From Terriglobia bacterium (GTDB taxonomy: Bacteria; Acidobacteriota; Terriglobia; Terriglobales; Acidobacteriaceae), in contig JAIQGK010000009.1 of NCBI GenBank assembly GCA_020072645.1, positions 62,001-126,000 on the forward strand: a stretch of 64,000 bases of DNA. The letters run 5' to 3'. This document shows, piece by piece, positions 40,072 to 57,251 of the stretch. Positions within the stretch are counted from its first letter, which is position 1; every line of letters begins with the position of its first letter. The translations under genes and the position numbers were made by a program. The notes under the pieces were generated by a model that worked only from the letters and a program-made list of their open reading frames with translations, did not search any database and was not told the origin of the DNA.

Positions 40072-41499
40072 CTACTTCCCGGCACCCGGCGACAGTCCCA
40101 GATCAACCAGAGCTTTGGGATTTTTCTCATCGGACGCAACCACGTTGTGGCAAACACTGCAGTCCTGCGTAATTGTCTTTCCATCCGAGCTGGCATGTTG
40201 CTCATCATGGCAGCGGAAGCACCCGTTAAAGTCCGTGTGTCCCAGATTGTTGGGGTAGGTGCCCCACGTAATCTTCATTTCAGGAAAAACGTTGTGCTGA
40301 TAGACACTGAGCAACGCCTTTGCGCTGCTGGCCACCTCAGCCCGGCGTTGCGCATAGATCTCAGGATATGTTTTGCGGTAATAGTCCTCAAAAGCCACAG
40401 GAATCTTGGCGGCCGCATCCTGTCCGGTTGCGTAGGTTTGTTTCACAATTTCCAAACCTTCTTTCTTGGCAAAGGGCAGAGTGGGAGAAATGTCACCAAA
40501 GGACATGGCGCGATCAATCGCGCGCTCTGGAAGCTGGAAGGTGTGCGCTGGCCGATTGTGGCAGTCAATGCACTGCATGGCCCGCAGTTTCGTCGGGTCA
40601 GGCTTGGCTCCGGGCGCAGCAAAGACCGTCATCTTGCCGCCGGAAGTGTATTCGACATAAGGAATGTTTTGGCGGACGTCATCCGATGCGTAGTAGCGCA
40701 GGGTAACGCCTTCGCCCAGATGCGCGCCGTGAACGCCGGAACTGTGCGGCCCGCCAGTTCCAAGATGCATCATTAGAACAGTGTGCGTGAGCGTGTTCTG
40801 CTCGTCGGCGCCGTAACTGGCCAGATCGCGCATGCGGTCGCCAAAAAAACGGCGGCGAGCGTGGCAGGATTCACACGTCTCCGTGGCCGGACGAAGCCGT
40901 TCCAGCGGCTCCGGGATTGGCCGCGGGTAAGTGTTTAAAGCTATATGGACCACTTGCCTTATGCCATTCACCTTGGCGCGCATGAATCCGCTGGCTCCCG
41001 GCCCAACGTGGCAGCCAACACATTCAACTTTGGAATGCGCTGACACTTCATAGGCGGCGAATTCCGGCTTCATCACGTGGCAGGTCGCGCCGCAAAAATT
41101 GGGCGTTTCCATATAGCGCACGCTGCTGTAGGAAAGCTGGCTGGCGATAATGATATTAAGAAAGGTAGTTACTGCGATAAAGCCAAACAGCTTGCGCAGC
41201 TCTGGATTGCGGGGATCAATGGGCTCAAAGTGTGCCGGCAACTCGCCTCTTTTGCGCATCCCGCGCCTGCGCAGATAGATACCAAGAGGGATGAGAAGAA
41301 GACCGCCAACAAAAATTCCCGGCAACAGAAGGTAAACAACAATGCCCACGTAAGGATGCACGCTGCCACTGCGCAACGTAATGGGCAGAAAGACCAGCCA
41401 GGTGACGCCAGCGGCGGTGACCACCACAACGCCCGCCAGACTGATCAAGTTGTTTGAGAAGAAAACAACGGGTGAAAGCCATTCACGAAATGTTCTCAT
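40072..41499 (-). CDS. NapC/NirT-like membrane-anchored multiheme cytochrome c
   Basis: A 475-residue cytochrome with three N-terminal membrane helices (LISLAGVVVVTAAGVTWLVF, VGIVVYLLLPGIFVGGLLLI, FGFIAVTTFLNIIIASQL) and a periplasmic part with six heme motifs: CGATCH (a CX3CH form) then CVGCH, CESCH, CIDCH, CFRCH and CSVCH. NapC/NirT/NrfH proteins take electrons from quinol and hand them to periplasmic reductases; this one has two more hemes than the usual four and could itself be a terminal reductase. The reductase partner is not in the window. The start at 41499 is divergent from a radical-SAM gene, with two perfect CRP-like sites between them. Confidence 0.88.
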   Translation of the reverse strand: MRTFREWLSPVVFFSNNLISLAGVVVVTAAGVTWLVFLPITLRSGSVHPYVGIVVYLLLPGIFVGGLLLIPLGIYLRRRGMRKRGELPAHFEPIDPRNPELRKLFGFIAVTTFLNIIIASQLSYSSVRYMETPNFCGATCHVMKPEFAAYEVSAHSKVECVGCHVGPGASGFMRAKVNGIRQVVHIALNTYPRPIPEPLERLRPATETCESCHARRRFFGDRMRDLASYGADEQNTLTHTVLMMHLGTGGPHSSGVHGAHLGEGVTLRYYASDDVRQNIPYVEYTSGGKMTVFAAPGAKPDPTKLRAMQCIDCHNRPAHTFQLPERAIDRAMSFGDISPTLPFAKKEGLEIVKQTYATGQDAAAKIPVAFEDYYRKTYPEIYAQRRAEVASSAKALLSVYQHNVFPEMKITWGTYPNNLGHTDFNGCFRCHDEQHASSDGKTITQDCSVCHNVVASDEKNPKALVDLGLSPGAGK

Positions 41500-41596
41500 T
41501 CCGCCTGGAACTCCTCTGCGCCAAAACTGCTGCGCTGCTGCGATGTTTCATCGGATGATTGCGAAAGCAGTATATATAAGTCTGCAAGTTTGCGAA

Positions 41597-41612
41597 TGTG
41601 ATAAATGTCACA
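41597..41612. promoter_or_regulatory. CRP/FNR-family operator, TGTGA-N6-TCACA (site 1)
   Basis: TGTGATAAATGTCACA is a perfect match to the E. coli-type CRP core. It lies in the 235-bp divergent region, centred 105 bp from the cytochrome start and 130 bp from the radical-SAM start. A second perfect copy is 48 bp away. The regulator is not in the window. Confidence 0.72.
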
Positions 41613-41644
41613 AGACATTGACCATTAGAACGCCTAATCGGACC

Positions 41645-41660
41645 TGTGACTTCCATCACA
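41645..41660. promoter_or_regulatory. CRP/FNR-family operator, TGTGA-N6-TCACA (site 2)
   Basis: TGTGACTTCCATCACA, the second perfect core, is centred 82 bp before the radical-SAM start. Spacing of 48 bp between the two centres is close to, but not exactly, an integral number of helical turns. Paired sites suit shared control of both divergent genes. Confidence 0.72.
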
Positions 41661-41734
41661 TCACCGGTGGAAACGACCCCTTAAGATTGCTTTCATACAT
41701 TTTTGCGTCAAAGCCTTTTTAAGGATGGGTGGCA

Positions 41735-42817
41735 ATGAATACAAGTTTTGATCTGAACCGGTGCCCTTTAATTGTGATCTGGGAAACCACGCAGGCCTGC
41801 GATCTTGCTTGTTGTCACTGCCGTGCCTGTGCGCAGTCAAAACGTCACCCTCTGGAATTGACAACCATGGAAGCGGAGAAGCTGATTCGCGATGTCGCAG
41901 ACCTGAAGCCTCCAATCTTCATTCTGACCGGCGGCGATCCTTTGAAACGCTCTGACATCTTTTATCTGGTCCGCAGGGCCGTCGCCCATGGTCTGAAGCC
42001 GGCAATGACGCCCAGCGCCACACCGCTGCTGACGCGCGAAGCCATTGCCGACTTGAAGCGCGCCCATCTCTCCAGAATGGCAGTGAGTCTTGACGGCGCA
42101 AGTCCGGAATTGCACGACGCCTTTCGCGGCGTTTCCGGCTCATTTGCGCGGACACTGGAAGCAATCCACTGGGCCAATGAGTTCGGTCTTCCCATCCAGG
42201 TGAACACCAGTATTTCCAAACGGAACATAGGTGACCTGGAGAACATGGCGAACCTGCTGAAACAGTTCAAGCTGGTGCTCTGGAGCGCCTTCTTTCTGGT
42301 TCCGACCGGGCGCGCTCAGATGGCCGACATGCTTTCTGCCGACGAAGTAGAGCAGACATTCGCAACGCTGTATCGTTTCTCTAAGGAATTGCCTTTTAAG
42401 GTAAAGACAACTGAAGCGCAGCATTATCGCCGTTACATTATCCAGCAACGGCTCAAAAGCAAGGGACAAAATCCATTTGCAGCCGGAGAGAATGGATGGG
42501 AGAAGACCGTACCGGGACTCTTGCCGATCAATGATGGCAAGGGATTTGTCTTTGTCTCACATACCGGTGAAGTGTGTCCCAGCGGCTTCTTGCCAGTCTC
42601 TGCGGGCAACGTGCGCGTGGACAGCCTGACGGAAATCTATCGCAATTCTCCGGTGCTGACTGCATTGCGCGACACCTCCAATTTGCAGGGCAAGTGCGGC
42701 GTCTGCGAATTCAAGGAAATCTGCGGCGGTTCGCGCGCCCGTGCTTATGCGGTGACCGGAAATATGTTTGCTGAAGATCCCTGCTGCAACTACGTTCCTC
42801 AAGCACTGCATCGCTGA
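41735..42817 (+). CDS. Radical-SAM/SPASM protein (NirJ/AhbD-like, TIGR04053-like)
   Basis: A 360-residue radical-SAM enzyme. The CxxxCxxC cluster is C22, C26, C29 (ACDLACCHC), followed by ILTGGDPLKR and the core barrel. The C-terminus has a SPASM-type auxiliary cluster region (GEVCPSGFLPVSAGNVRVD, GKCGVCEFKEICGGSRARAY, FAEDPCC). Such proteins act on heme precursors (NirJ, AhbD) or on peptides; the SPASM domain leaves both open. No precursor peptide is seen, and the neighbouring multiheme cytochrome with shared CRP-like sites favours a heme or respiratory role. ATG 41735 is nine bases from AAGGA; GTG 41729 is the alternative. Confidence 0.82.
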   Translation: MNTSFDLNRCPLIVIWETTQACDLACCHCRACAQSKRHPLELTTMEAEKLIRDVADLKPPIFILTGGDPLKRSDIFYLVRRAVAHGLKPAMTPSATPLLTREAIADLKRAHLSRMAVSLDGASPELHDAFRGVSGSFARTLEAIHWANEFGLPIQVNTSISKRNIGDLENMANLLKQFKLVLWSAFFLVPTGRAQMADMLSADEVEQTFATLYRFSKELPFKVKTTEAQHYRRYIIQQRLKSKGQNPFAAGENGWEKTVPGLLPINDGKGFVFVSHTGEVCPSGFLPVSAGNVRVDSLTEIYRNSPVLTALRDTSNLQGKCGVCEFKEICGGSRARAYAVTGNMFAEDPCCNYVPQALHR

Positions 42818-43035
42818 GACGTGCGAACCATTTGCGGCGCCACTTAATTCTTCTGGATTAGGTCATCTCTTTCATCAGAGACACGGAATAAATCTCAATT
42901 CCGCAGCTCTCGTTTCTTGCACTGCTTAATACCAACGAGGCAAACCCGTGGCAACGCAGGTGATCTAAGTCTTTAGCGCTGCTTTAACTCTTCTTAAGGC
43001 CTGGAGATAAAGGCCAAAAACCAGGAGGAACGTAC

Positions 43036-43587
43036 ATGAAAAAAATATCTTTGATTACAGCAATTCTGTTGTTGTCGGCGGTTTGGGCTGTGGCGCAAAC
43101 CTCGCCAAGCAGCTCGTCTCCATCAACAACACCAGACACAAGCTCGCAAACGTCTCCATCGTCCACCTCACCCAGCCAACAACCGGCGACTCCAGATACC
43201 AGCTCAACCACGACCCAGACCACCACGACGCAAACCACCCAGACCTCAAACAATAGCAATTCCATTGAGGGCTGTCTGAGTGGCTCGGCTGGCAACTGGA
43301 CGTTGACAGATCAGACTGGTAAAACATGGCAACTTGCCGGCGACACTTCAAAACTGAGCGACCACGTTGGTCATCAGATTCGCATTATGGGAACGGACAA
43401 TAGCAGTTCAGCTTCCAGCAGCGGCAGCAGTTCGCCCAGCTCCAGCAGCGGCAGCATGGGCAGCTCAACCAATTCCAGCAGCGGCTCCAGTGCAACCGGA
43501 GCAGGCTCCTCTTCCGGATCTCAACCAACGTTTACGGTACAGAAAGTAAAAATGATTTCGAGCACGTGCTCGACCACCAGCAAGTAA
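43036..43587 (+). CDS. Secreted Ser/Thr-rich DUF5818-like protein
   Basis: A 183-residue protein: signal peptide (KKISLITAILLLSAVWAVAQ), a ~55-residue Ser/Thr/Pro/Gln linker, a small folded core (SIEGCLSGSAGNWTLTDQTG, TWQLAGDTSKLSDHVGHQIR) that resembles the OB-like DUF5818 domain, then a ~60-residue Ser/Gly linker and a short strand with a second Cys. The two folded-part Cys (CLSG and STCST) may form a disulfide. GGAGGAACGTAC gives a strong SD before ATG 43036. Small secreted proteins of this kind are common in Acidobacteriota; the role is unknown. Confidence 0.75.
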   Translation: MKKISLITAILLLSAVWAVAQTSPSSSSPSTTPDTSSQTSPSSTSPSQQPATPDTSSTTTQTTTTQTTQTSNNSNSIEGCLSGSAGNWTLTDQTGKTWQLAGDTSKLSDHVGHQIRIMGTDNSSSASSSGSSSPSSSSGSMGSSTNSSSGSSATGAGSSSGSQPTFTVQKVKMISSTCSTTSK

Positions 43588-43612
43588 CTAGGGAATCGCA
43601 AGAAACGAGCAG

Positions 43613-43644
43613 CCCCTGCGCCAAGGCGCGGGGGTTTTCTTTTT
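43613..43644 (+). terminator. Rho-independent terminator
   Basis: CCCCTGCGCC (43613-43622) pairs with GGCGCGGGGG (43625-43634), with one G-T wobble, followed by TTTTCTTTTT. It lies 26 bp after the DUF5818-like gene stop. Confidence 0.85.
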
Positions 43645-43658
43645 GTCGAGGATACAAA

Positions 43659-44792
43659 CTAGGGATTCACGTGCAGACGGCCATCGCGTAAGACAGTGCA
43701 TTTTCTGTTACGCCAGACAATCTTGTCACCCACAAAGCCGCTGATCCATACAAAGAAACCGATGACATCTTGCACCGGCAGCAACCACCATTGTTTTTGC
43801 GTGACCGGATCGTGAACAATGTTGCGGGCAGTGGCCCAAGCCGCGGACCCGCGCAGAATCATAGTTAGAAACAACACTGGCCAGGCGGGCGGGTAGGCAG
43901 CGCACAGCAAAAGCGCCAGAGGCAGCGGATAAGTGAATATCTGTCCCCAATAGCCCAGCGGACGCGAGCGGCGCGTGCTGCGTGCCCAGCGCATACGGTG
44001 TCCCAGGTTAGCCATCATGCTCTGGCTTCCAATGCGGTGTTCAATCACGTATGACGAGAATAAAACACCATGCCCCAGTTGGGCAGCGCGCTGGCCAATC
44101 ACAAAATCTTCTGCCAGAAACTCCTGCAGATAGCCAAAACCACCCATATCGTCAAGCACGCGGCGGCGGACAGCTACGGTGCAGCCCAGCGCGAAACGCA
44201 TACCCTCAATCATGCGCGCGACCAACACTCCACCCAGAAGTTCCGTATTCATTCCAATCGCTTCCAAACGCGACCACAAACTCTTTCCCGGAACCGCGCG
44301 GTAAGGGCAGCTGATCAGTCCGATGTGATTGTCCTGAAGCTCCTGGGCTAGATGAGAGAGCAGGCTGGGTGTCACGCGGACATCACTGTCACTCATTACC
44401 AGTACGTCGTAATTCGCTTCACGAACCATGCGATTCAAACTGAATGCCTTGGCATTGGGGATGGGAGACTCTCCCGTAATGATGAGCCGCGCGCTGATTC
44501 GTCCGCTAAATTCGGCGATGATGTTTTCCGCCACGGCCACGGCCGGGTCGTCCTGGCGATGGACGCCAAACAAAACTTCGTATTCGGGATAATCCTGCAC
44601 CATGAAGCTGCGCAGATTTTCTTCCAAGCCATCGTCATGACCGCAGAGGGGCTTAAGAACACTGATAGGCGGGTTGTTTCCGGGGGAAGGCAGAGTAGTC
44701 GACAAAAACCGCCGCGTGGCAACAAGAATTAGGACGCAGTAAACGAGTGAGCCGGTAAGCAGAACCGCCAATGCCGTTGCAAGGATTACCAT
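43659..44792 (-). CDS. hpnI: Family 2 glycosyltransferase, HpnI / ceramide glucosyltransferase-like
   Basis: A 377-residue membrane glycosyltransferase. N-terminal helix; SVLKPLCGHDDGLEENLRSF, the CGT/HpnI signature; VLVMSDSDVRV with the DxD-type metal site; FLAEDFVIGQRAAQLGHGVL; and RMRWARSTR as the (Q/R)xxRW motif; then three C-terminal helices. In hopanoid producers HpnI transfers N-acetylglucosamine to bacteriohopanetetrol, but ceramide-type substrates are possible. The gene overlaps the ArnT-like gene by 7 nt, so both act in one lipid or surface-glycan route. No squalene-hopene cyclase lies in the window, so hpnI is a best guess. Confidence 0.8.
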   Translation of the reverse strand: MVILATALAVLLTGSLVYCVLILVATRRFLSTTLPSPGNNPPISVLKPLCGHDDGLEENLRSFMVQDYPEYEVLFGVHRQDDPAVAVAENIIAEFSGRISARLIITGESPIPNAKAFSLNRMVREANYDVLVMSDSDVRVTPSLLSHLAQELQDNHIGLISCPYRAVPGKSLWSRLEAIGMNTELLGGVLVARMIEGMRFALGCTVAVRRRVLDDMGGFGYLQEFLAEDFVIGQRAAQLGHGVLFSSYVIEHRIGSQSMMANLGHRMRWARSTRRSRPLGYWGQIFTYPLPLALLLCAAYPPAWPVLFLTMILRGSAAWATARNIVHDPVTQKQWWLLPVQDVIGFFVWISGFVGDKIVWRNRKCTVLRDGRLHVNP

Positions 44793-46669
44793 AACGCGGG
44801 TTTGTTCTCCATGTGGGAGCCATCCGCAGTTTCGCCGGAAAGGCCATTGGTAAAAAGAAATTTGCCGCCACTTTCAGCAATCTGGTGGAACTGCGCGGGG
44901 CCGGCCAGGGCGCTCAGATGAGCGAGCCCGCTGCTGTCAGTGACCAGATAATAGCGAATTGTACCTGACCAGAGCCTCTTAAAGGCAGCGTCATCGATAA
45001 AAACAGGGGGGGAACCCGGCGCGTAAGAGCCATATTCAAGGTTATTGACACGCCCATTCAGCAGCAAAGCGCTCTTATTCGAATAAAACATAACTGAAGA
45101 AAAAGGATAATATGCGCCATCCACAATCAATTGTCCTGAGGGGGAATGGAGCAGCGCCTCGGCTATTGGTCGGGAAGAGAGATAAGGATCGAAGACTACA
45201 AGCGCCATCCGGCTCGCGTGTAAGAACAAAACCATCATCGCGGCCAGCGCTATGAATGCGCGGCGTCCACGGAGCCAGCCGCCTGCAGCACCGACTAGAA
45301 ACGCCATGCCCGCGAGTATGAGTGGAGCCCGCAGATAAGCGAATGACTGGAGCGTCAGGTCGCCCATGTGTCCAAGCGAAAGCGTGTAAGACTCAGGATG
45401 CTGCTGCAGGGCGCTGGAGATGTCGCCTGTGACGGGAACATGGCGAACGGCGAATAAGATTGCCCCAATCACCGCCGCAGCCGCGGTTGAAATCAACGCT
45501 ATTGTCCTGCTGCCTGCCGTGATGAGTTTTACTTCGCTATCCATTGCACAACCGAGCAGGAGCGCAAGCGCGGGATAGATCGGCATGGAATAGTATTCCT
45601 GCGTGGTGGAGAAGGTGAAAAACAGCATCAGAAATCCGGCCCAGCAGAGCGCGAGCAGGCGCGTGCGGCCGGCGCGATCTAGCGGCCTGTAGTTCAGTCT
45701 GACCGCCGCGGGCAAATAGGCGCTCCAGGGAAAGAGCCAGAGCAGATTCAGCAGCCAGAATGCCAGCCGGGGCACGGTGTTGTAGTCGCGCGGATAGCGC
45801 AGGTTTAAGAACCGTAATAGATGTTCATTGAAAAAATAGAACCAGAAGAAGCCGTGATATTCGCCGGGACCGCTGTGCATGCTGAAGTTGAAATAAGGCG
45901 GCATGCGCAATGTGGCCAGGACATGCCACGGCGCGGCGATGAGCAGCAAAATCAGGATTGTGGTGAGCGGGTGCAGGCGACGCCAGGTCTCGCGCCGAAA
46001 AAGCTGGCGCGTAATCGCCAGGTAGACCAATACTCCCCCTACAGGAACAACCAGCGCGAGCAACCCTTTCAACAGAACACCCACGCCCAGTGCAACGCCG
46101 ATCAAAGCAGTCCATCGGCGCGAATGGAGTTCTATTCCGTCTTCATTCATGGCGCGCTGGAATGCCATGAAACAAACGGTGATCGCAAGCGTGAGCATTA
46201 CATCGGGAATCAGAATACGAGTAAAAAGGAAGAGACCGATCGACGTTGCCAAAGCCAGTCCGGCATAGAAACCGGCGCGGCGACTGAAGGCCCACGCTCC
46301 GTAGCGTGCCGTGGCAAAGCAGAGAAGGACCGCAGCCAGAGCGGTGGGAATACGCGCCACCCAATCATGAACGCCCATTACGAGATAACAAATGGCAATG
46401 AGCCAATAAGGTAACGGCGCTTTTTCCATGTATGGTACGCCGTCCAAATGAGCGATGACCCAGTCGCCTGACTGGACCATATTGCGCGCCATCTGGCCGT
46501 GAACGGCGTCAACATCGTCCATTAAGGCGGGCGGAGAAATGATGCAACCAAAAAAGACAACAGCGGCCAAAATGAGCAGCACGATTTCATAATGCCGCCG
46601 CAGAGTTAACTGCTGAGCCGCAGGAACATTGATTGCTGATTCATCCTGCTGGGACGCGAGTTCTTTCAC
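44786..46669 (-). CDS. ArnT/PMT-type polyprenyl-phosphate glycosyltransferase
   Basis: A 627-residue integral membrane GT-C enzyme with ~11-12 helices. The first periplasmic loop carries the catalytic acidic motif (LMDDVDAVHGQMARNMVQS, VIAHLDGVPYMEKAPLPYW) characteristic of ArnT-like dolichyl/undecaprenyl-phosphate-sugar transferases, and a soluble C-terminal domain follows (PIAEALLHSPSGQLIVDGAY). It transfers a sugar from a lipid carrier to lipid A, a hopanoid or a glycan; which one cannot be told. It is first in a two-gene operon with the HpnI-like gene. Confidence 0.85.
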   Translation of the reverse strand: MKELASQQDESAINVPAAQQLTLRRHYEIVLLILAAVVFFGCIISPPALMDDVDAVHGQMARNMVQSGDWVIAHLDGVPYMEKAPLPYWLIAICYLVMGVHDWVARIPTALAAVLLCFATARYGAWAFSRRAGFYAGLALATSIGLFLFTRILIPDVMLTLAITVCFMAFQRAMNEDGIELHSRRWTALIGVALGVGVLLKGLLALVVPVGGVLVYLAITRQLFRRETWRRLHPLTTILILLLIAAPWHVLATLRMPPYFNFSMHSGPGEYHGFFWFYFFNEHLLRFLNLRYPRDYNTVPRLAFWLLNLLWLFPWSAYLPAAVRLNYRPLDRAGRTRLLALCWAGFLMLFFTFSTTQEYYSMPIYPALALLLGCAMDSEVKLITAGSRTIALISTAAAAVIGAILFAVRHVPVTGDISSALQQHPESYTLSLGHMGDLTLQSFAYLRAPLILAGMAFLVGAAGGWLRGRRAFIALAAMMVLFLHASRMALVVFDPYLSSRPIAEALLHSPSGQLIVDGAYYPFSSVMFYSNKSALLLNGRVNNLEYGSYAPGSPPVFIDDAAFKRLWSGTIRYYLVTDSSGLAHLSALAGPAQFHQIAESGGKFLFTNGLSGETADGSHMENKPALW

Positions 46670-47139
46670 CGGAGAAATACTGCCATCCCTCCTATCTTAC
46701 CTGTTGCGAATCGATCATCGCTTGCATGGAAAGTCTTGCTCCCGTCGAAAAGCGCATGCGCCCGAAATGAATACCTGTATAGAGTAAAAATTCATTCCGG
46801 TAAGCACTTTTAACTGATCACAGCGGAGTTTAAACATATAAATTGTAAAAAACTGTAAACCGTATTTGAGAGGGCAATGACCTTTGGTCTGATCCGGACG
46901 TGCCGATCTCCGAGCTCGCAACCCGGGCGCGTTAACTCTTTTTGGGCTAAGAAACGTAAAGGTTGCACCACAACACCAGTTCAGACGTAAGATGATCTCG
47001 TTGGCGTGAGATGTGCCATTTCGACGGGAAATGGCAATTCGGGACCCGCTACCTACCGCAACATTTCCACGGTAGCAGTGTTCCTGTTTTCAGCACCAGA
47101 AACGCGTGGCCGGCGTAAGGACATCACTGGAGTTTCGAC
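46670..47139. other. 470-bp divergent intergenic region with leader hairpins
   Basis: The part near 47140 folds well on the plus strand. TGCCATTTC (47014-47022) pairs with GAAATGGCA (47028-47036), and TACCG/CGGTA forms a second hairpin about 20 nt further on. These precede the start at 47140 by ~100 nt and may form a structured leader. The rest is AT-rich and should hold both promoters. No gene or known RNA class is seen. Confidence 0.4.
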
Positions 47140-47844
47140 ATGACCCTGTTGAAACGAAGAATAGCGGGAGCACTGGCGGTAATCAGCGTAGCTTCACTGA
47201 TTACATTTCTCCAGGTTGAAGCCAATCACGAAACCGACGACCAGATTGGCGAAGAAGCAATATGGAAAGCCAGCCCTGAAGACCTGAGCGCGATCAGCCA
47301 AGCCTGTAAAATGACCGATGCCTCGCGATATGGCGATTGCTTTATTGACCAGATGGGCGAGTACGCATCGTCTAACGCTGTAGCGTTCACGCAGATGCTG
47401 GCATCACAAAAGTCCTCGCGTCTGGGATATCTAACCGGCTCGCGCGAATACGGACTCGTGGACCTTGGATACGTGGTATATCCCGGAACCCAGAAATTGC
47501 ACCAGGGATGGATGCTGTTGAACGGAATGCCCGCGCTGATCAATCTGGATGATGTTACCGCGCTGCCGAAAGCAGCAATGGAAAAAGACGCTCAATACGC
47601 CGCTCTGCTCAGGAGCCATCCCCAGATGCAATTGGCGATAAATGATGAACAGCGCAAAGAGGCCACAGCGCCCCAAATTGAACGGCTGCCCAGCGAAGGA
47701 GAAAGGTTCGCAGTTCCCTACTCACTCCAGGATCCTTGTGCTGGGTGCGCTCCGCTGGCGCAAGCCATCTTTGGCTTTGACTTTAATGACGCAGGCAAAT
47801 TCATGGGCATAAAATTTCTGAGGGTTGAAAAATTCAATCCGTAA
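47140..47844 (+). CDS. Secreted or membrane-anchored hypothetical protein
   Basis: A 234-residue protein with an N-terminal hydrophobic segment (IAGALAVISVASLITFLQV) that is a signal peptide or anchor, and a soluble region with four Cys: CKMTDASRYGDCF (a possible loop disulfide) and DPCAGCAPL near the end. Other landmarks: GLVDLGYVVYPGTQKLHQG and FGFDFNDAGKFMGIKFLRVE. No family is recognised. It stands alone between a long leader and a palindrome that may end its transcript. Confidence 0.65.
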   Translation: MTLLKRRIAGALAVISVASLITFLQVEANHETDDQIGEEAIWKASPEDLSAISQACKMTDASRYGDCFIDQMGEYASSNAVAFTQMLASQKSSRLGYLTGSREYGLVDLGYVVYPGTQKLHQGWMLLNGMPALINLDDVTALPKAAMEKDAQYAALLRSHPQMQLAINDEQRKEATAPQIERLPSEGERFAVPYSLQDPCAGCAPLAQAIFGFDFNDAGKFMGIKFLRVEKFNP

Positions 47845-47874
47845 CGCCGGCATCGGTAGAAGGCTATCCTTTCC

Positions 47875-47908
47875 AGGATGTGAGATTTCTCACATCCTTT
47901 ATTTTTTG
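47875..47908 (+). promoter_or_regulatory. CRP-like operator and/or terminator palindrome (site 3)
   Basis: A perfect palindrome with 11-bp arms (47875-47885 and 47888-47898) contains TGTGAGATTTCTCACA (47879-47894), a perfect TGTGA-N6-TCACA core, centred 60 bp before the Pat-like gene. It is followed by TTTATTTTTTG, so it can also act as the intrinsic terminator of the gene ending at 47844. Both uses may apply. In E. coli the pat (yfiQ) gene is CRP-activated, which favours the operator reading. Confidence 0.68.
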
Positions 47909-47946
47909 CGGCTGGTAGGCTGGTCTTCAACAGAAGTTGGGGACCA

Positions 47947-50697
47947 ATGAGTAGTAATCTAGTAGACCTAATGCCAACATTGCCGGGAACAGACCAGCGG
48001 GGGCACGAATCCACGATACCTTCGTGGCCGCCGAGCCCACTGGCGCCAATCTTCCATCCCAGGACCGTAGCCGTCATCGGCGCCACGGAAAAGCCTGCCA
48101 GCGTGGGCCGCACTGTACTGCGCAACCTGATGGAGCAACCTTCCGGCGCGACTATTTTTCCCATCAACCCGCATCGCCCAAACGTGCTGGGAATTCGCTG
48201 CTATCCCAATATCGCATCAATCGGGGAGCAGGTTGACCTGGCCATTGTGGTTACCCCGGCAGCAACTGTCCCTGACGTGTTGCAGGAATGCGTGGCTGCC
48301 GGAGTGCGCAGCGCCATCGTCATTTCAGCCGGCTTTGCCGAACTGGGTGCCGACGGTAGAGCGCTGGAGAGCAAGATTCGCCAGGTGCTGGCGTCAGGAC
48401 ATCTGCGGCTGATTGGACCGAACTGCGTTGGCGTAATGAATCCGCGCACGGGACTGAACGCGACGTTTGCGCAGTCCAATGCCCTGCCCGGCAATATCGC
48501 TTTTTTGAGCCAGAGCGGCGCGCTTTGCACCGCCGTGCTGGACTGGAGCCGCAGAGAGAACGTTGGATTTAGCGGCGTGGTTTCAGTGGGGTCGATGCTG
48601 GACGTGAGTTGGGGCGACCTGATCTATCACTACGGCGATGACGCTTATACCTCGAGCATTCTGATTTACATGGAATCCATTCGCGACGCGCGCAGCTTTC
48701 TCTCCGCGGCGCGCGAAGTTTCACTGCGCAAGCCAATTATCGTGATCAAGCCCGGGCGCACAGAAGCGGCACGAAAAGCCGCGGCGTCGCATACGGGATC
48801 GATGACTGGATCGGATGAAGTATTTGAGGCTGCGTTTCGTCGCGCCGGGATTCTACGGGTGGCCAGTATCGGTGAGCTGTTTGATATGGCCGAGGTCCTA
48901 AGCAAGCAACCAAGACCCCACGGCCCACGGCTGGCAGTAGTTACCAATGCGGGCGGTGCTGGTGTGCTGGCAGTGGACGCGCTGCTGGCAAGCGGCGGAC
49001 AATTGGCAACGCTTTCACAAGACACGCAGGAAACACTCAATAAATTATTGCCGGCGGCGTGGAGCCATTCCAATCCGGTGGACACGCTGGGCGACTGCCT
49101 TCCGGAAATGTATGCCAAAGCACTACAAGCGGTAGCAGATGATCCCAACTGCGATGCTGTGCTCTCAATTCTTGCTCCGCAGGGGATGACCGAACCGGAG
49201 CAGGCGGCGGGTCTAGTGCGCAAGGCCGCAGAAACGATCAAGAAGCCGCTGATTGCAAGCTGGATGGGCGGCAGCCGCATGCAGCTTGCAGCCAACGTGT
49301 TGAATGAGGCCAGAATTCCCACGTTTGAATATCCTGACGCGGCCGCTCGAAGCTTTGCCTACATGTGGCGCTACACTTCGTACCTTCAGGCGCTCTATGA
49401 AACGCCGGTATTCGCCGGTGACCTTCCCGAAGATGGTCCGCGACGCGTGGCGGAAATTATCGCCAGCGCGGTGGCGAAGAATCGCACGATACTGACCGAG
49501 CATGAATCCAAGCAGGTGCTTGCGGCTTATGAGTTGCCGGTTACGCCTTCCAGGCTGGCATTTTCGGTAGACGAAGCGGTTGCAGCAGCGGAAAAGATCG
49601 GCTATCCCGTGGTGCTCAAGCTTAATTCTGAGATCGTTACACACAAATCCGATCGCGGCGGAGTGCATTTGAACTTGAAAGACGCAAGCGCAGTACAGTC
49701 GGCTTTCGCGCAGATTCAGGCCACTTTTGGCGAGGGCAGCTTCCAGGGAGTGACGGTCCAGCCGATGGTCAGCACAGCGGGCTACGAATTGATTCTGGGT
49801 AGCTCCACTGATCCGCAGTTTGGGCCGGTGCTGGTGTTTGGCCTGGGCGGCCAACTGGTAGAAGTATTGCGCGACAATGCGCACGCCCTGCCGCCACTCA
49901 CCACCACTCTGGCGCGCCGCATGATGGAGAATACCCGCATCCTGCAAGCGCTAAAAGGCGTTCGCGGACGCAAGCCCGTTGACCTGGAAAAGCTGGAGGA
50001 ACTGCTGGTCCGCTTTAGTGAACTAGTGGTGGAGAACCCCCGCATTGCTGACATTGAAATCAATCCGCTACTGGCCAGCGACGAAGGATTCATAGCGCTG
50101 GATGCCAGAGTGATCCTGCATCCGGCGACAATGCGGGATGCGGAACTGCCGCGCCCGGCGATCCGTCCTTATCCCAGCCAGTACATTTCCAACTGGGAAT
50201 CGCAGGATGGCACCAGCTTTACGCTGCGGCCGATTCGCCCCGATGATGAACCGCTGATGGTGGATTTCCATCACCAACTTTCAGAGAACAGTGTTTACAT
50301 GCGATTTTTCCTGCCGTTGAAACTCGACTTCCGCGTTTCCCATGAGCGGCTCTTCACCAAGTGCTTTATTGATTACGAGCGCGAGATCGGGTTGGTGGCG
50401 GAATACGCCGACGAAGAAGGCGCGCGGCGTATTGCCGGTATCGCGCGGCTGATCCGCAAGCACTCTGACAACAGCGCCGAGGTGGCGTTCCTGATCGCGG
50501 ACAAATTCCAGAACCGCGGGCTGGGCACGCACATGCTGGATACCACGATCCAGATTGCGCGCAAGGAAGGTATTGCAACGCTGGAGGGAGCTACGCTTTC
50601 CGACAATTTCAACATGAAAGACATGTTCATCAAGGCCGGTTTCCGCTTCGCCCCTCCTGAAGACGGAGTGGCCACGGCGGAATTGCAGTTAAAATAG
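47947..50697 (+). CDS. ADP-forming acyl-CoA synthetase / GNAT acetyltransferase fusion (Pat-like)
   Basis: A 916-residue protein. An N-terminal acyl-CoA synthetase (NDP-forming) alpha part ([54 protein letters not shown]) is followed by the beta part with ATP-grasp ([39 protein letters not shown]), and a C-terminal GNAT domain (about residues 755-916: [38 protein letters not shown]). It resembles the Pat/YfiQ protein lysine acetyltransferase, whose synthetase part is inactive for lack of the active-site His. Here His282 is retained ([10 protein letters not shown]), so acyl-CoA/ADP chemistry may be intact. The CRP-like site upstream agrees with Pat control in enterics. Confidence 0.87.
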
Positions 50698-50759
50698 CCC
50701 CAAAAACCGCGCCAAAGCTATATTTCTGGCGATGATTCGCGGGACTGGCCAATGGTACG

Positions 50760-50775
50760 TGTGAGGACAATCACA
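50760..50775. promoter_or_regulatory. CRP/FNR-family operator, TGTGA-N6-TCACA (site 4)
   Basis: TGTGAGGACAATCACA is a perfect core centred 58 bp before the ATG of the HdeD-like gene. A TATAAC (50803-50808) downstream could be the -10 hexamer. It is the fourth perfect copy in 10 kb. Confidence 0.7.
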
Positions 50776-50825: not shown

Positions 50826-51452
50826 ATGATCCGCTTAATGATCCAGAATTGGTGGTTGCTATTTCTGCGCGGCGTCCTGGCGATTGCTTTCGCCATTTTC
50901 ATTTTTGCTTTTCTGCCATTTGTGCCAGCACCTTTTTTGCGCCAGTTCGCATTTGCTGGTCTGGCCGCGATTTTCGCGCTGTTTGCTTTCGCCACCGGCG
51001 TTCTTACCATTGCAGCCGCAGTGCGCGGAGCAGGTCAGGGCGGCTCGTCATGGCTGATGCTGGCAGATGGCATTGCCGTGACAGCGGGCGGCCTCATTAT
51101 TCTGCTCGCCCCAGGCTCCACGCTGATGCGGGTGATCCAGTTAATCGCCCTTATCGCTTTGGTGGTTGGAGTACTGGAATTTACCGCCGGAATCCACCTG
51201 CGCCGTCATGTTACCGATGAATGGCTGCTGGTGAGTGGCGGCGTAATCTCGATTGCATTCGCGCCATGCCTGTTGTTGGCCAACGTTGGGACGGTGCAGG
51301 CAGCATTGACGTGGATCTCTATCTATGCGCTAGCCACCGGCGTGGCTATCATCGGCTTGGCATTGCGTCTGCGAAGCTTGCGAAATTCAATTCATGCATT
51401 GGCCGGGTCTAAACCAGAGGCTCGTGCCGTTAGTCAATCCAGAGTGATCTAA
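50826..51452 (+). CDS. HdeD-family (DUF308) membrane protein
   Basis: A 208-residue protein with six membrane helices in three paired DUF308 repeats (WWLLFLRGVLAIAFAIFIFA, GLAAIFALFAFATGVLTIAA, LADGIAVTAGGLIILLAPGS, LIALIALVVGVLEFTAGIH, LVSGGVISIAFAPCLLLANV). In E. coli HdeD protects against acid at high cell density; the bacterial-wide role is unclear. A strong SD (GAGGGAGGCGGA) precedes ATG 50826. A perfect CRP-like site lies upstream, and the fdh operon lies convergent downstream. Confidence 0.88.
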   Translation: MIRLMIQNWWLLFLRGVLAIAFAIFIFAFLPFVPAPFLRQFAFAGLAAIFALFAFATGVLTIAAAVRGAGQGGSSWLMLADGIAVTAGGLIILLAPGSTLMRVIQLIALIALVVGVLEFTAGIHLRRHVTDEWLLVSGGVISIAFAPCLLLANVGTVQAALTWISIYALATGVAIIGLALRLRSLRNSIHALAGSKPEARAVSQSRVI

Positions 51453-53818: not shown

Positions 53819-56800
53819 TTAGACCTTCTCGACTTTCACCAGGAAGCCTTTGAACTCCGGTGTGTAAGCGTTCGGATCGATCACTGTGGGCGAGAGCTGG
53901 TTGGCCAGAGTGCGCTCGTTTTCCGGCCGGCCGTCATTGATTCCGCGATATCCCCAATGGATCGGAATGCCGATCTGGTAAGTTTTTTCGTTCTTTCCCG
54001 CCAGTTGCATGCCTTTGATACGTCCGGTGACCATGGCCTTGGCATAATAGCTGCTGCGCGCGCTGCTGATCTTGAGTTTGTCGCCACCCTTAATCTGCAG
54101 CTTGTCCGCCAGTTCCTTGGGAATTTCCACGAATGGCTCAGGAACCAGTTCCATGTTCATCTTGTTGTTCTTGGTCCAGTAGTGGTAGTGCTCCGTGAGG
54201 CGGTACGTGGTGCAGATGATGTCATAACCCTGCTCGGGCGTACCGTATTTGTCCGCAGGCGTGCTGTATTTCTTCACCACCGGGCTATTGGACTGTTTGG
54301 GATGGAGCGCATTGGCCACTGGACTCTCAATGGGTTCATAATGCTCAGAAAACGGTCCATCCGCCATTCCGGCCAGGGGGACAAACAGGCGGCCCAGGCC
54401 TTCCGGCGTCATAATGAATGGCCCCATGTGGTCCTTGGGGTTGGAGTCGGGCTTGAAGTCAGGAACATCATTGCCCGCCCACTTGCCCGTTGCCTGATTG
54501 AACCATACCTGCTTGCGGCTCGGGTCCCAAGGCTTGCCTTCAACGTCACAAGAGGCGCGATTGTAAAGCACGCGCCGATTCATGGGCCACGACCAGCCCC
54601 AGCCCGGATGGATACCGAGCCCGGAGGGATCGTCAGGATTGCGCCGCTGCGAGTTGGAACCGGCATCCGGCCACGAACCGCAATAGAGCCAGTTGCCGCA
54701 AGACGTGGTGCCATCATCCTTCAGCCAGGCAAAACCGGGCAACTGCTGACCGGCCTTCCAGTCGGAAGGAGTCTGCTTTTCATCGTGCAGATCAGCCAGC
54801 GCCTTGCCGTTAATCTCCTTGGCCACCTCAGTCAATGACGGGTTGTTTGGATTGGTGTAAGCCCAGGAAGCATTCAGGATGGCATCCGGGAACTTGCCGC
54901 CTTCCTTCTGGTACAGGGCGCGAACACCAAGGAATATCCGGGCCAGAATCTCCTGGTCCAGTTTGGCATCGCCTGGAGGCGGCACGGCGGCCCACTTCCA
55001 CTGCAACCACCGCGCTGAGTTCACGAAGGTACCGTCTTTTTCCGCAAAACCGGCGCAGGGAAGACGATAGACTTCAGTTTGAATCTTTTTCTTGTCGTCG
55101 TCAGAGATTCCTGGCGACTCCCAGAAACTGCTGGTTTCGTCAGGATAAATCTCGCCCACCACCAGCCAGTCCGCCTTCTTCAGCGCGTCAATGTTCTTTT
55201 GCGAATTCGGGCCTATGGCAACGCCGTTCATGCCGAAAGTCAGTAGCCCCTTGACCTTTCCCCTGTACATGTTGTCCCACTGCTCCACGAAAGAAAATTT
55301 GCGATCAATCTTGGGCAGATAGTGGAACGCGAAGTCGTTCTCTTTCTTAGCGGCGTCTCCGTACATTGCCTTAAGGAAAGAGACCGCGAATTTGGGAGTG
55401 TTCGACCAGTAGTTGAATGACTCCCAATCTTTCGGCTTTGAAGGCGTTGGGGTGATGCGCTTGAGATAGGTTGCCAGGTCGGTGTCAGCTGGAACGGGCA
55501 TCTTGAGATAGCCAGGCAGAATATCGAAAATGCCAGCCATATCCGTGGCGCCCTGGATATTGGAGTGACCGCGAAGGGCATTTACGCCGCCGCCGGCGCG
55601 CCCCACGTTCCCCAGAAGAAGCTGGGCCATGGCAGCGGTGCGGATGATCTGCGTTCCAAAGGTGTGCTGCGTCCAGCCAACCGCATAAATGATGGTGGCA
55701 ACCTTCTTCGTATCACCATCCTTGCGGATTGACGTGAACATGTCCCAAGCTTTGACGCATTGGTCGGCGGGAATACCGGTGATGCTTGACACCATCTCCG
55801 GCGTATAGCGTGAATAGTGCTTCTTCATCAACTGGAAGACGCAGCGCGGATGCTCGAGCGATATATCGTATGCGGTGTTCGGTGGAAGGGACGGTGGAGC
55901 GGGAGCGCCCGTTGTCGCCTTTGCGCCGGCAGGGCCGCCCCCGCCATGGCCCTGCCCAGTGGCCATTGCCACCGGATTCGCGGTTGCCTTGGCAGCCGTT
56001 TCCGCGCTTGCGGGGCCGTCGCCAGCCGCAATGGCCGCAGCCGCGGTGCCGGTCACGTTTCCTCCTTCTTCGTAGTTCCACGAAGAGACGTCATACTTCA
56101 TGCCCGCAGCATCGAAGCCGGAAAACACTCCGTCGTCTGCCAGCTTGAAGCCCTTCTTGATGATCAGCGGCGCGTTGGTAAAATTGGTTACGTATTCCTT
56201 GGCATAGCGGTTGTTCTGGATAGCATAGTTGATCAGGCCGCCCAGGAAGGCAATGTCTGATCCGGAGCGGATCTGGCAGAAGATATCGGCCTGCGAGGCC
56301 GTGCGCTGGAAGCGCGGGTCCACCACGATCAATTTCGCGTTCCGGACCTTTCTGGCCTCCACTACCCACTTAAAGCCGCAGGGATGAGCTTCAGCAGGGT
56401 TGCCGCCCATGATCAGCATCATGTCGGTGTTCTTGATATCTACCCAGCCATTGGTCATTGCGCCGCGCCCGAACGTTGGTCCCAAACTTGAGACCGTGGG
56501 GCCGTGTCAAACACGGGCCTGGTTTTCCAGGTAGCAGACCCCCAGGCTGCGCATGGTCTTTACGACCAGATAGTTGAACTCGTTCGTATCAGTGCATCCA
56601 CCGTTAAAGGCGATGCCCTCGCACCGATTTACGGTTTTCCCGTTGGCGTCGGTATCGACGAAAGTTTCATCTCGCGTCTTTTTGATGTGGCGCGCGATCT
56701 CGGTATACGCTTGGTCCCAGGAAATATCTTCCCATTGGGTGCCGCCGCGGCGGCGTACCTGCGGCTTCAATAGACGGCGATCATTCAGGATGTCCTGATA

Positions 56801-57085
56801 GAGCGACGCTCCCTTTGGGCACAGAGTACCGCGATTGATCGGATGATCGGGGTCGCCTTCAACGTGGACCACCTGCGCGGTCACGTTCTTGGCCTTATCG
56901 CCAAGCGTGTGAATGATCACGCCGCAGCTCACTGAGCAATAAGGACACGTGGACCTCGTCTCAGTGGTGCGGGCAATCTTAAGTTCTTTTGCTTGAGCCA
57001 GAACCGGGCGGGCGTCAAACCCTAAAAGAAGCGCAGCGGCGCTGCCGGTTCCGACTTTAAAGAATTCACGTCTCGATAAGCCCAT
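53819..57085 (-). CDS. fdhA: Selenocysteine formate dehydrogenase, catalytic alpha subunit
   Basis: A 1088-residue molybdenum (or tungsten) bis-MGD enzyme that oxidises formate to CO2 in the periplasm. Tat signal SRREFFKVG (start ATG 57085, SD CAGGAGGCC). Cluster motif CPYCSVSCGVIIHT. The in-frame TGA at 56507-56509 is residue 193, in RV-U-HGPTVSSLGPTFG, the position of Sec in FdnG and FdhF, so the two open frames are one gene. A low-complexity Ala/Gly/Pro insert (residues ~341-405) follows YEEGGNVTG. The MGD-binding C-terminal domain (FVEIPKELADKLQIKGGDKL) closes it. It is the first gene of the fdh operon; no selABC gene lies in the window. Confidence 0.95.
56478..56509 (-). promoter_or_regulatory. 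SECIS element and Sec UGA codon
   Basis: Reading the minus strand from TGA (56509-56507), 11 nt of spacer lead to an apical hairpin GGTCTCA-AGTT-TGGGACC (56495-56478): 7 bp with one G-U and a loop containing GU, as SelB requires. The spacer begins TGACACGGCCC, as in E. coli fdhF. This supports Sec insertion and not a pseudogene stop. Confidence 0.85.
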
Positions 57086-57251
57086 AGAGTTGGCCTCCTG
57101 CCAGGCGCATTTCACGAGCAAACTTGTGCGTTGGTTTAATTGTCCGGTCCGAATGCCGGGAACTTCCGTAAAGAATTTTCAAGACATGCTAGAACCCGCA
57201 AAGCAAAATGTCCATAAAATTTTTATAAAGAGAATTTCAGAGTGCCTGGAT

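Follow-up and report, generated by a model that had tools for sequence, protein, structure and literature searches.

Perfect TGTGA-N6-TCACA operators in a Terriglobia genome and a candidate CRP/FNR-family regulon for respiration

Closest described systems

Several described regulators of the CRP/FNR superfamily offer a comparison for four perfect TGTGA-N6-TCACA operators at positions 41,597 to 50,775 of a 64,000-nucleotide stretch of Terriglobia bacterium DNA (GCA_020072645.1, contig JAIQGK010000009.1; the whole stretch is referred to as the window) and for two candidate regulator genes of the same genome, regA and regB. With moderate confidence, we regard the sites as class II-type activator operators of a genome-wide respiratory or redox regulon read by regA, probably with an overlapping role of regB. 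HcpR1 of Desulfovibrio desulfuricans 27774 is, like regA, a CRP/FNR protein independent of cyclic AMP (cAMP) with an R-E-R recognition helix, and according to the available part of its description it binds TGTGA-N6-TCACA, regulates its own gene and has a site before napC (PMC5701242), as would be the case here if regA binds as predicted. The same source proposes HcpR1 to be a haem-binding sensor of nitric oxide (NO), whereas regA has four conserved cysteines and predicted sites in class II phase. Judged by sequence, regA would share with HcpR the R-E-R helix, the TGTGA operator and the own-gene site, and since HcpR1 is a precedent for this operator and helix with a non-cAMP sensor, the kind is already known.

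E. coli FNR resembles regA in its N-terminal CxxC..C motif, in the E-x-x-S-R residues of the recognition helix and in the place of its gene beside a universal stress protein gene (fnr adjoins uspE); its cydA-type target and -41.5 geometry are also like those of the predicted regA regulon. However, regA differs in its C-x2-C-x8-C spacing, has no equivalent of C122 and carries its fourth cysteine elsewhere, and an arginine stands in place of FNR V208, so that CRP rather than FNR operators would be expected to be recognised. The FNR operator TTGAT-N4-ATCAA occurred once in 468,433 bases of DNA chosen around TGTGA sites (permuted control, none). E. coli CRP shares with regA and regB the residues R180, E181 and R185, the operator (enriched in this genome, its binding here being predicted) and central-metabolism targets, but its cAMP contacts are missing from both. 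The PDB matches of regA and regB include what we take to be mycobacterial CRP and GlxR of C. glutamicum, which are alike in operator, in R180/E181/R185 and in central-metabolism targets, although regA lacks the cAMP-contact residues. We know of no cysteine motif in DdrI of Deinococcus, which is set beside regA by description only. In the parts available of the respective sources, DdrI adopts the DNA-binding conformation of the CRP family without cAMP (PMC11253593), and Crp1 of M. smegmatis induces cydAB (PMC7739888).

The operators, their promoters and their targets

Perfect sites number 39 in the whole genome (G000; 6.44 Mb in 42 contigs) against three for a reversed-pattern control, and the N6 spacer alone is enriched: spacers of 2 to 12 bp together gave 62 matches, of which N6 accounts for 39 (by subtraction) and the ten other spacers for 23 combined. 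A first-pass annotation, made from the letters of the window, had correctly located the four cores there and taken them for a local regulon; with only four of 39 sites in the window, a purely local regulon is ruled out. Its surmise that more copies may exist was borne out for the genome and not for the window, which holds exactly four. With the genome treated as one line, simulation gave a P of 0.0009 for any 9.18-kb span with four of the 39 sites and of 0.04 for three of 37 promoter regions in such a span after merging of close sites, so the clustering is only mildly unusual given 39 sites in the genome. Dinucleotide-preserving shuffles contained on average 0.01 perfect cores per window, none of 100 shuffles reaching four, and with one mismatch allowed the window has seven matches versus 1.38 expected. 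A chance origin is ruled out by these shuffles, the genome enrichment and the strict spacer. An Rfam scan of the window gave no match.

For the other 35 sites, 33 stretches were fetched and genes were predicted with a home-made codon-based script; two starts in the window and one at locus L041 were corrected by hand, and all distances inherit the errors of the gene caller. Although 80% of the fetched DNA is coding, called genes fully enclose just one of the 39 sites (P about 1e-25), which lies inside a 147-residue call, and 32 sites have a facing start no more than 300 bp away (hand count, corrected starts). The cores are thus placed at promoters, contrary to the mostly intragenic occurrence by which the first-pass idea could have failed. 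The free base after TGTGA in the 78 half-sites is C in 39, T in 26, G in 12 and A in one (C or T in 65 of 78, P 2.8e-8); this preference is absent from the search pattern and is therefore independent evidence for binding.

The features of the window are as follows, with class II positions as predicted.

40072..41499, minus strand: NapC/NirT-type multihaem cytochrome c gene (napC), target; PF03264 5.7e-09, PF14522 6e-10
41569..41574, minus strand: predicted -10 hexamer TATACT of the napC-like gene
41597..41612, minus strand: perfect operator TGTGA-N6-TCACA, class II position toward the leftward napC-like gene; TAnnnT 30.5 bp from centre, minus strand
41645..41660, plus strand: perfect operator, class II position toward the rightward radical-SAM gene; TAAGAT 29.5 bp from centre
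41682..41687, plus strand: predicted -10 hexamer TAAGAT of the radical-SAM gene
41735..42817, plus strand: radical-SAM/SPASM gene (rSAM), target; PF04055; start set from orthologue MNTSFDL
47879..47894, plus strand: perfect operator of pat; extended palindrome TGTGAG....CTCACA retained in G003, G005 and G007
47916..47921, plus strand: predicted -10 hexamer TAGGCT of pat
47947..50697, plus strand: Pat-like protein acyltransferase (NDP-forming acyl-CoA synthetase plus GNAT), target; PF13380, PF13607, PF19045, PF13549, PF13302
50760..50775, plus strand: perfect operator of the HdeD-like gene, without a -10 at class II spacing
50826..51452, plus strand: HdeD-like (DUF308) membrane protein gene, target; PF03729 1.7e-08

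All four sites are intergenic and near gene starts, as had been described, with 58 to 153 bp from site centre to start codon (napC 105 and 153 bp; rSAM, ATG at 41735, 82 and 130 bp; pat 60 bp; HdeD-like gene 58 bp). Genome-wide, the hexamer TAnnnT keeps a fixed distance from the sites, which was discovered by scanning: of 78 orientations, 10 have it 29.5 bp and 11 have it 30.5 bp from the centre, compared with 0.75 at each other offset. Such spacing is found at 21 of the 39 sites, always in one orientation only, and 18 of these 21 face a called start at most 300 bp away. The relatives' loci, which are partly orthologous, have it at the same offsets in 17 and 12 of 110 orientations (29/110) versus 0.91 elsewhere. 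If TAnnnT is read as a -10 element (-12 to -7), the site centre falls at -41.5 or -42.5; class II sites of CRP and FNR are centred near -41.5, and from the predicted -10 elements the sites appear to occupy this activator position. The phase assigns site 41597 to napC and site 41645 to rSAM, and the pat site has it too. As each divergent site is phased to one gene, the presence of two in the napC-rSAM region is explained.

A Pfam scan covered the window proteins and 30 site-adjacent proteins elsewhere, eight of which had no match; some neighbours were left unscanned. Site-adjacent genes include those for citrate synthase (gltA), isocitrate dehydrogenase (icd), the Sdh cytochrome subunit (sdhC), cytochrome bd subunit I (cydA), acetyl-CoA synthetase (acs), AlaDh/PNT, two universal stress proteins and rubrerythrin, along with three radical-SAM genes (one in the window, two elsewhere), the NapC-type cytochrome and the Pat-like acyltransferase. 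Others are not obviously respiratory, namely a PAS histidine kinase, a response regulator, TonB, HlyD, PagL, GAF, TIR, DUF3300, two dehydrogenases and a dienelactone hydrolase. The first-pass view of CRP/FNR-type operators with a respiratory theme gains strong support from promoter placement, enrichment, partial conservation and a fitting recognition helix. A gene at L063 resembles a nitrate transporter by eye only, and four similar-looking small, perhaps exported proteins lie near sites at L031, L036, L042 and L061 (no Pfam match for those of L031, L036 and L042).

The window also holds, at 53819-57121 on the minus strand, a formate dehydrogenase large-subunit gene whose single frame is interrupted by TGA in RV-TGA-HGPTV, the usual selenocysteine place. 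Genes for an Fe-S subunit, cytochrome b and FdhE accompany it (Pfam), and together they look like a selenocysteine Fdh-N operon. Direct control of this fdh operon was rejected, there being no site in the 320 bp upstream (best score -2.5, G000), though fdh adjoins genes with sites.

Candidate regulators and their relatives

As the first-pass annotation had stated, the regulator is not encoded in the window; the candidate regA is on contig C5 (197435-198160), but relatives have it close to pat at four loci. regB (C5:206702-207415) is found about 8.5 kb from it, beyond what by eye are cytochrome bc genes. The genome has 13 HTH_Crp_2 matches, including regA (69.6 bits) and regB (73.9 bits), both of which combine a predicted N-terminal beta-roll sensor with this domain, as members of the CRP/FNR superfamily do. 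A search for a CRP/FNR-family protein with a fitting recognition helix, proposed earlier, thus yielded both: an alignment with E. coli CRP and FNR included seven of the 13 matches, the remaining helices being read by eye, and SRETVSR is found in regA and regB only, with VRELVSR in L020 as the third R-E-x-x-x-R helix (3/13). In the alignment regA and regB retain CRP residues R180, E181 and R185 and none of the cAMP contacts E72, R82, S83, T127 and S128 (regA has L, E, a gap, A and Y). L020 keeps E72 as its sole contact, and E72 and R82 are both retained in L023, L024 and L025, whose recognition helices differ.

The N-terminal C-x2-C-x8-C motif was parsed in 37/37 regA loci, and a further cysteine in an LC.G strand is present in 34/37; a separate alignment took in 20 of 30. 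The C-x2-C aligns with the FNR cysteines (C20, C23, C29), the third regA cysteine coming three residues later, and the column of FNR C122, which is not conserved, holds N in regA. An AlphaFold model from three orthologues has a mean predicted local distance difference test (pLDDT) score of 53, too low to judge cysteine proximity. regB, with the identical SRETVSR, has no cysteine cluster.

Orthologues of regA (73-100%) are present in 9/9 genomes of the genus, and in 8/9 a perfect site lies 61-83 bp before the gene. Scores upstream of genes were compared with a null of 343 upstream windows (99% at 14.6, maximum 15.7); a site above the 99% level is found at 19 of 37 regA loci (8/9 in the genus, 11/28 outside), while the upstream region of regB scores 1.9 in G000 and 14.3 in G004. 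regA is at most 3 kb from pat and separated from it by no more than two genes in G004, L065 (one gene), L066 (two) and L070 (divergent, outside the genus). The order in G004 is fdh operon, fdhE, hdeD, pat, a universal stress protein gene, a further gene, a site, regA, a short paralogue, two sites and, by eye, cytochrome bc genes. Universal stress protein-like genes are also near regA at L163, L041, L161 and L116 (Pfam-tested for L041 only). A regA paralogue of 145-197 residues (longest start) lacking the helix-turn-helix follows regA within 600 bp in 14/37 loci (within L071-L100, L120-L126 and L142-L158), an arrangement that may be new. C-x2-C-x8-C is retained in three of the 14, and more cysteine-bearing copies exist at L143, L144, L145, L151 and L153; two aligned cysteine-bearing copies end after the dimerisation helix.

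Among the genus genomes, whose fetched DNA covers just the surroundings of pat and regA, so that a gene missing from it may exist elsewhere, the pat site is perfect in G000, G003, G005 and G007 and scores 12.9 in G008 (in G006, pat matched over its GNAT part only). The HdeD-like gene has four perfect and two degenerate sites (12.9, 14.8) among six found, the G002 copy being 41% identical; the napC site is present at 2/2 orthologues found, and rSAM has three perfect sites and one of 14.3 among four. The 60 genomes of the family contain 662 sites versus 44 controls. With regA/regB classes assigned by hand, 32 with a strong regA and no regB-type protein have 432 sites versus 26 controls (median 2.98 per Mb), ten with a regB-like best match have 86 versus 7 (2.37), eight with a weak match have a median of 1.28, and eight with no close match have 28 versus 3 (0.73). 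G000 and G004 have both genes, and the three genomes with zero sites all lack a close regA.

Counts were also made in 80 of 119 genomes of the phylum, 14 with regA at E below 1e-30 and 66 others (three of the same family first, then by handle number). Medians are 1.65 and 0.40 sites per Mb, respectively (P 0.0002, a rough value as the compared genomes are related), and no site is found in 0/14 versus 20/66. The 66 genomes without a close regA nevertheless hold 178 sites versus 22 controls, with 19, 14 and 9 in G071, G086 and G108, which means that the phylum has other readers. G114, also without a close regA, has 15 sites, eight of which are copies of the same 16-mer, TGTGAACGCGTTCACA, which may be a repeat element.

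Weighing of readings and significance

We judge the sites to form a real, partly conserved regulon of a CRP/FNR-family protein, probably an activating one. Several observations weigh against its assignment to regA as an activator. The -10 spacing is found at 21/39 sites only and not at the HdeD-like gene; three of the 21 phased sites (L041:6888, L051, L057) have no facing called start within 300 bp, and two of the 38 non-contained sites overlap small calls (60 residues at L036 by 15 bases, 28 at L049 by 5). The expected conservation upstream of orthologues holds at several promoters, but pat has no site in G001, G002 and G004, three of the eight genus genomes with full-length pat, and the stretches fetched from G000, G001, G002, G003 and G007 do not show regA in the vicinity of pat. 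The shifted third cysteine and unconserved C122 make an FNR-like cluster uncertain. Sites occur without a close regA in G028 (seven; 76% complete), G045 (nine; 53% complete) and G031 (six versus one control; 100% complete), while G093 and G074 have regA but one site each. G001 and G006, with regA and without regB, are the poorest of the genus (9 versus 3 controls and 3 versus 0; 1.84 and 0.81 sites per Mb against 4.05-6.42 in the rest), which points to regB; the two paralogues may share the operator.

This last pattern, together with the proximity of regB to regA past the apparent cytochrome bc genes and the sites of the ten regB-like family genomes, speaks for regB as the main reader in the genus, in which case the signal would be something else than that of a cysteine cluster. 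We hold this to be rather unlikely, given the abundance of sites in the 32 strong-regA genomes without regB-type protein and the own-gene site of regA, where regB has a low upstream score in G000, though a higher one in G004. Repression, in which a dimer centred near -41.5 would cover part of the -35 region, could be suggested by sites 53-60 bp before several starts that could block polymerase; it is quite unlikely, because the fixed -41.5/-42.5 phase is what class II activation requires and repressor sites need no fixed phase. The cAMP-activated CRP of E. coli or mycobacteria has in its favour that the operator is the CRP consensus, that the genome has two class III cyclase genes and that gltA and sdh are CRP targets in E. 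coli. The accessible part of one source adds pat and acs to these targets (PMC8556138). A carbon-status CRP is nonetheless unsupported and highly improbable, being disfavoured by the alignment: all three R-E-x-x-x-R proteins lack the cAMP contacts, apart from E72 in L020, and those that keep E72 and R82 have other helices. An HcpR-like haem or NO sensor is in our view very unlikely, as regA has a four-cysteine pattern, and PDB chain 9day, which we take to be HcpR, is absent among the best 60 of 61 regA matches and a weak match of regB (1.8e-06). Operator, R-E-R helix, own-gene site and napC target are all shared with HcpR1, as far as its available description goes (PMC5701242).

With regA as the reader, a dimer would bind the sites through its SRETVSR helix and contact RNA polymerase from a position around -41.5, thereby activating napC, rSAM and pat as well as its own gene and, elsewhere in the genome, cydA, sdh, gltA, icd and acs. 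Its sensor is probably an iron-sulfur cluster, ligated by the four conserved cysteines and responsive to oxygen or redox state, and regB probably reads overlapping sites under another signal. More tentatively, it is possible that in this family the CRP operator has taken over the oxygen or redox control that governs respiration and the tricarboxylic acid cycle, by way of a natural FNR-type sensor with a CRP recognition helix, and that the truncated paralogue could tune regA through inactive heterodimers (dominant-negative).

What is new here is the lineage, together with the cysteine-rich sensor and the truncated partner gene. The open-licence literature searched yielded no description of a global oxygen or redox regulon in Acidobacteria, which are abundant in soil. 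The operator, its promoter geometry, the 39 sites and both candidate regulators can now be named and are all testable, and where such a genome contains a CRP consensus site, cAMP control should not be assumed.

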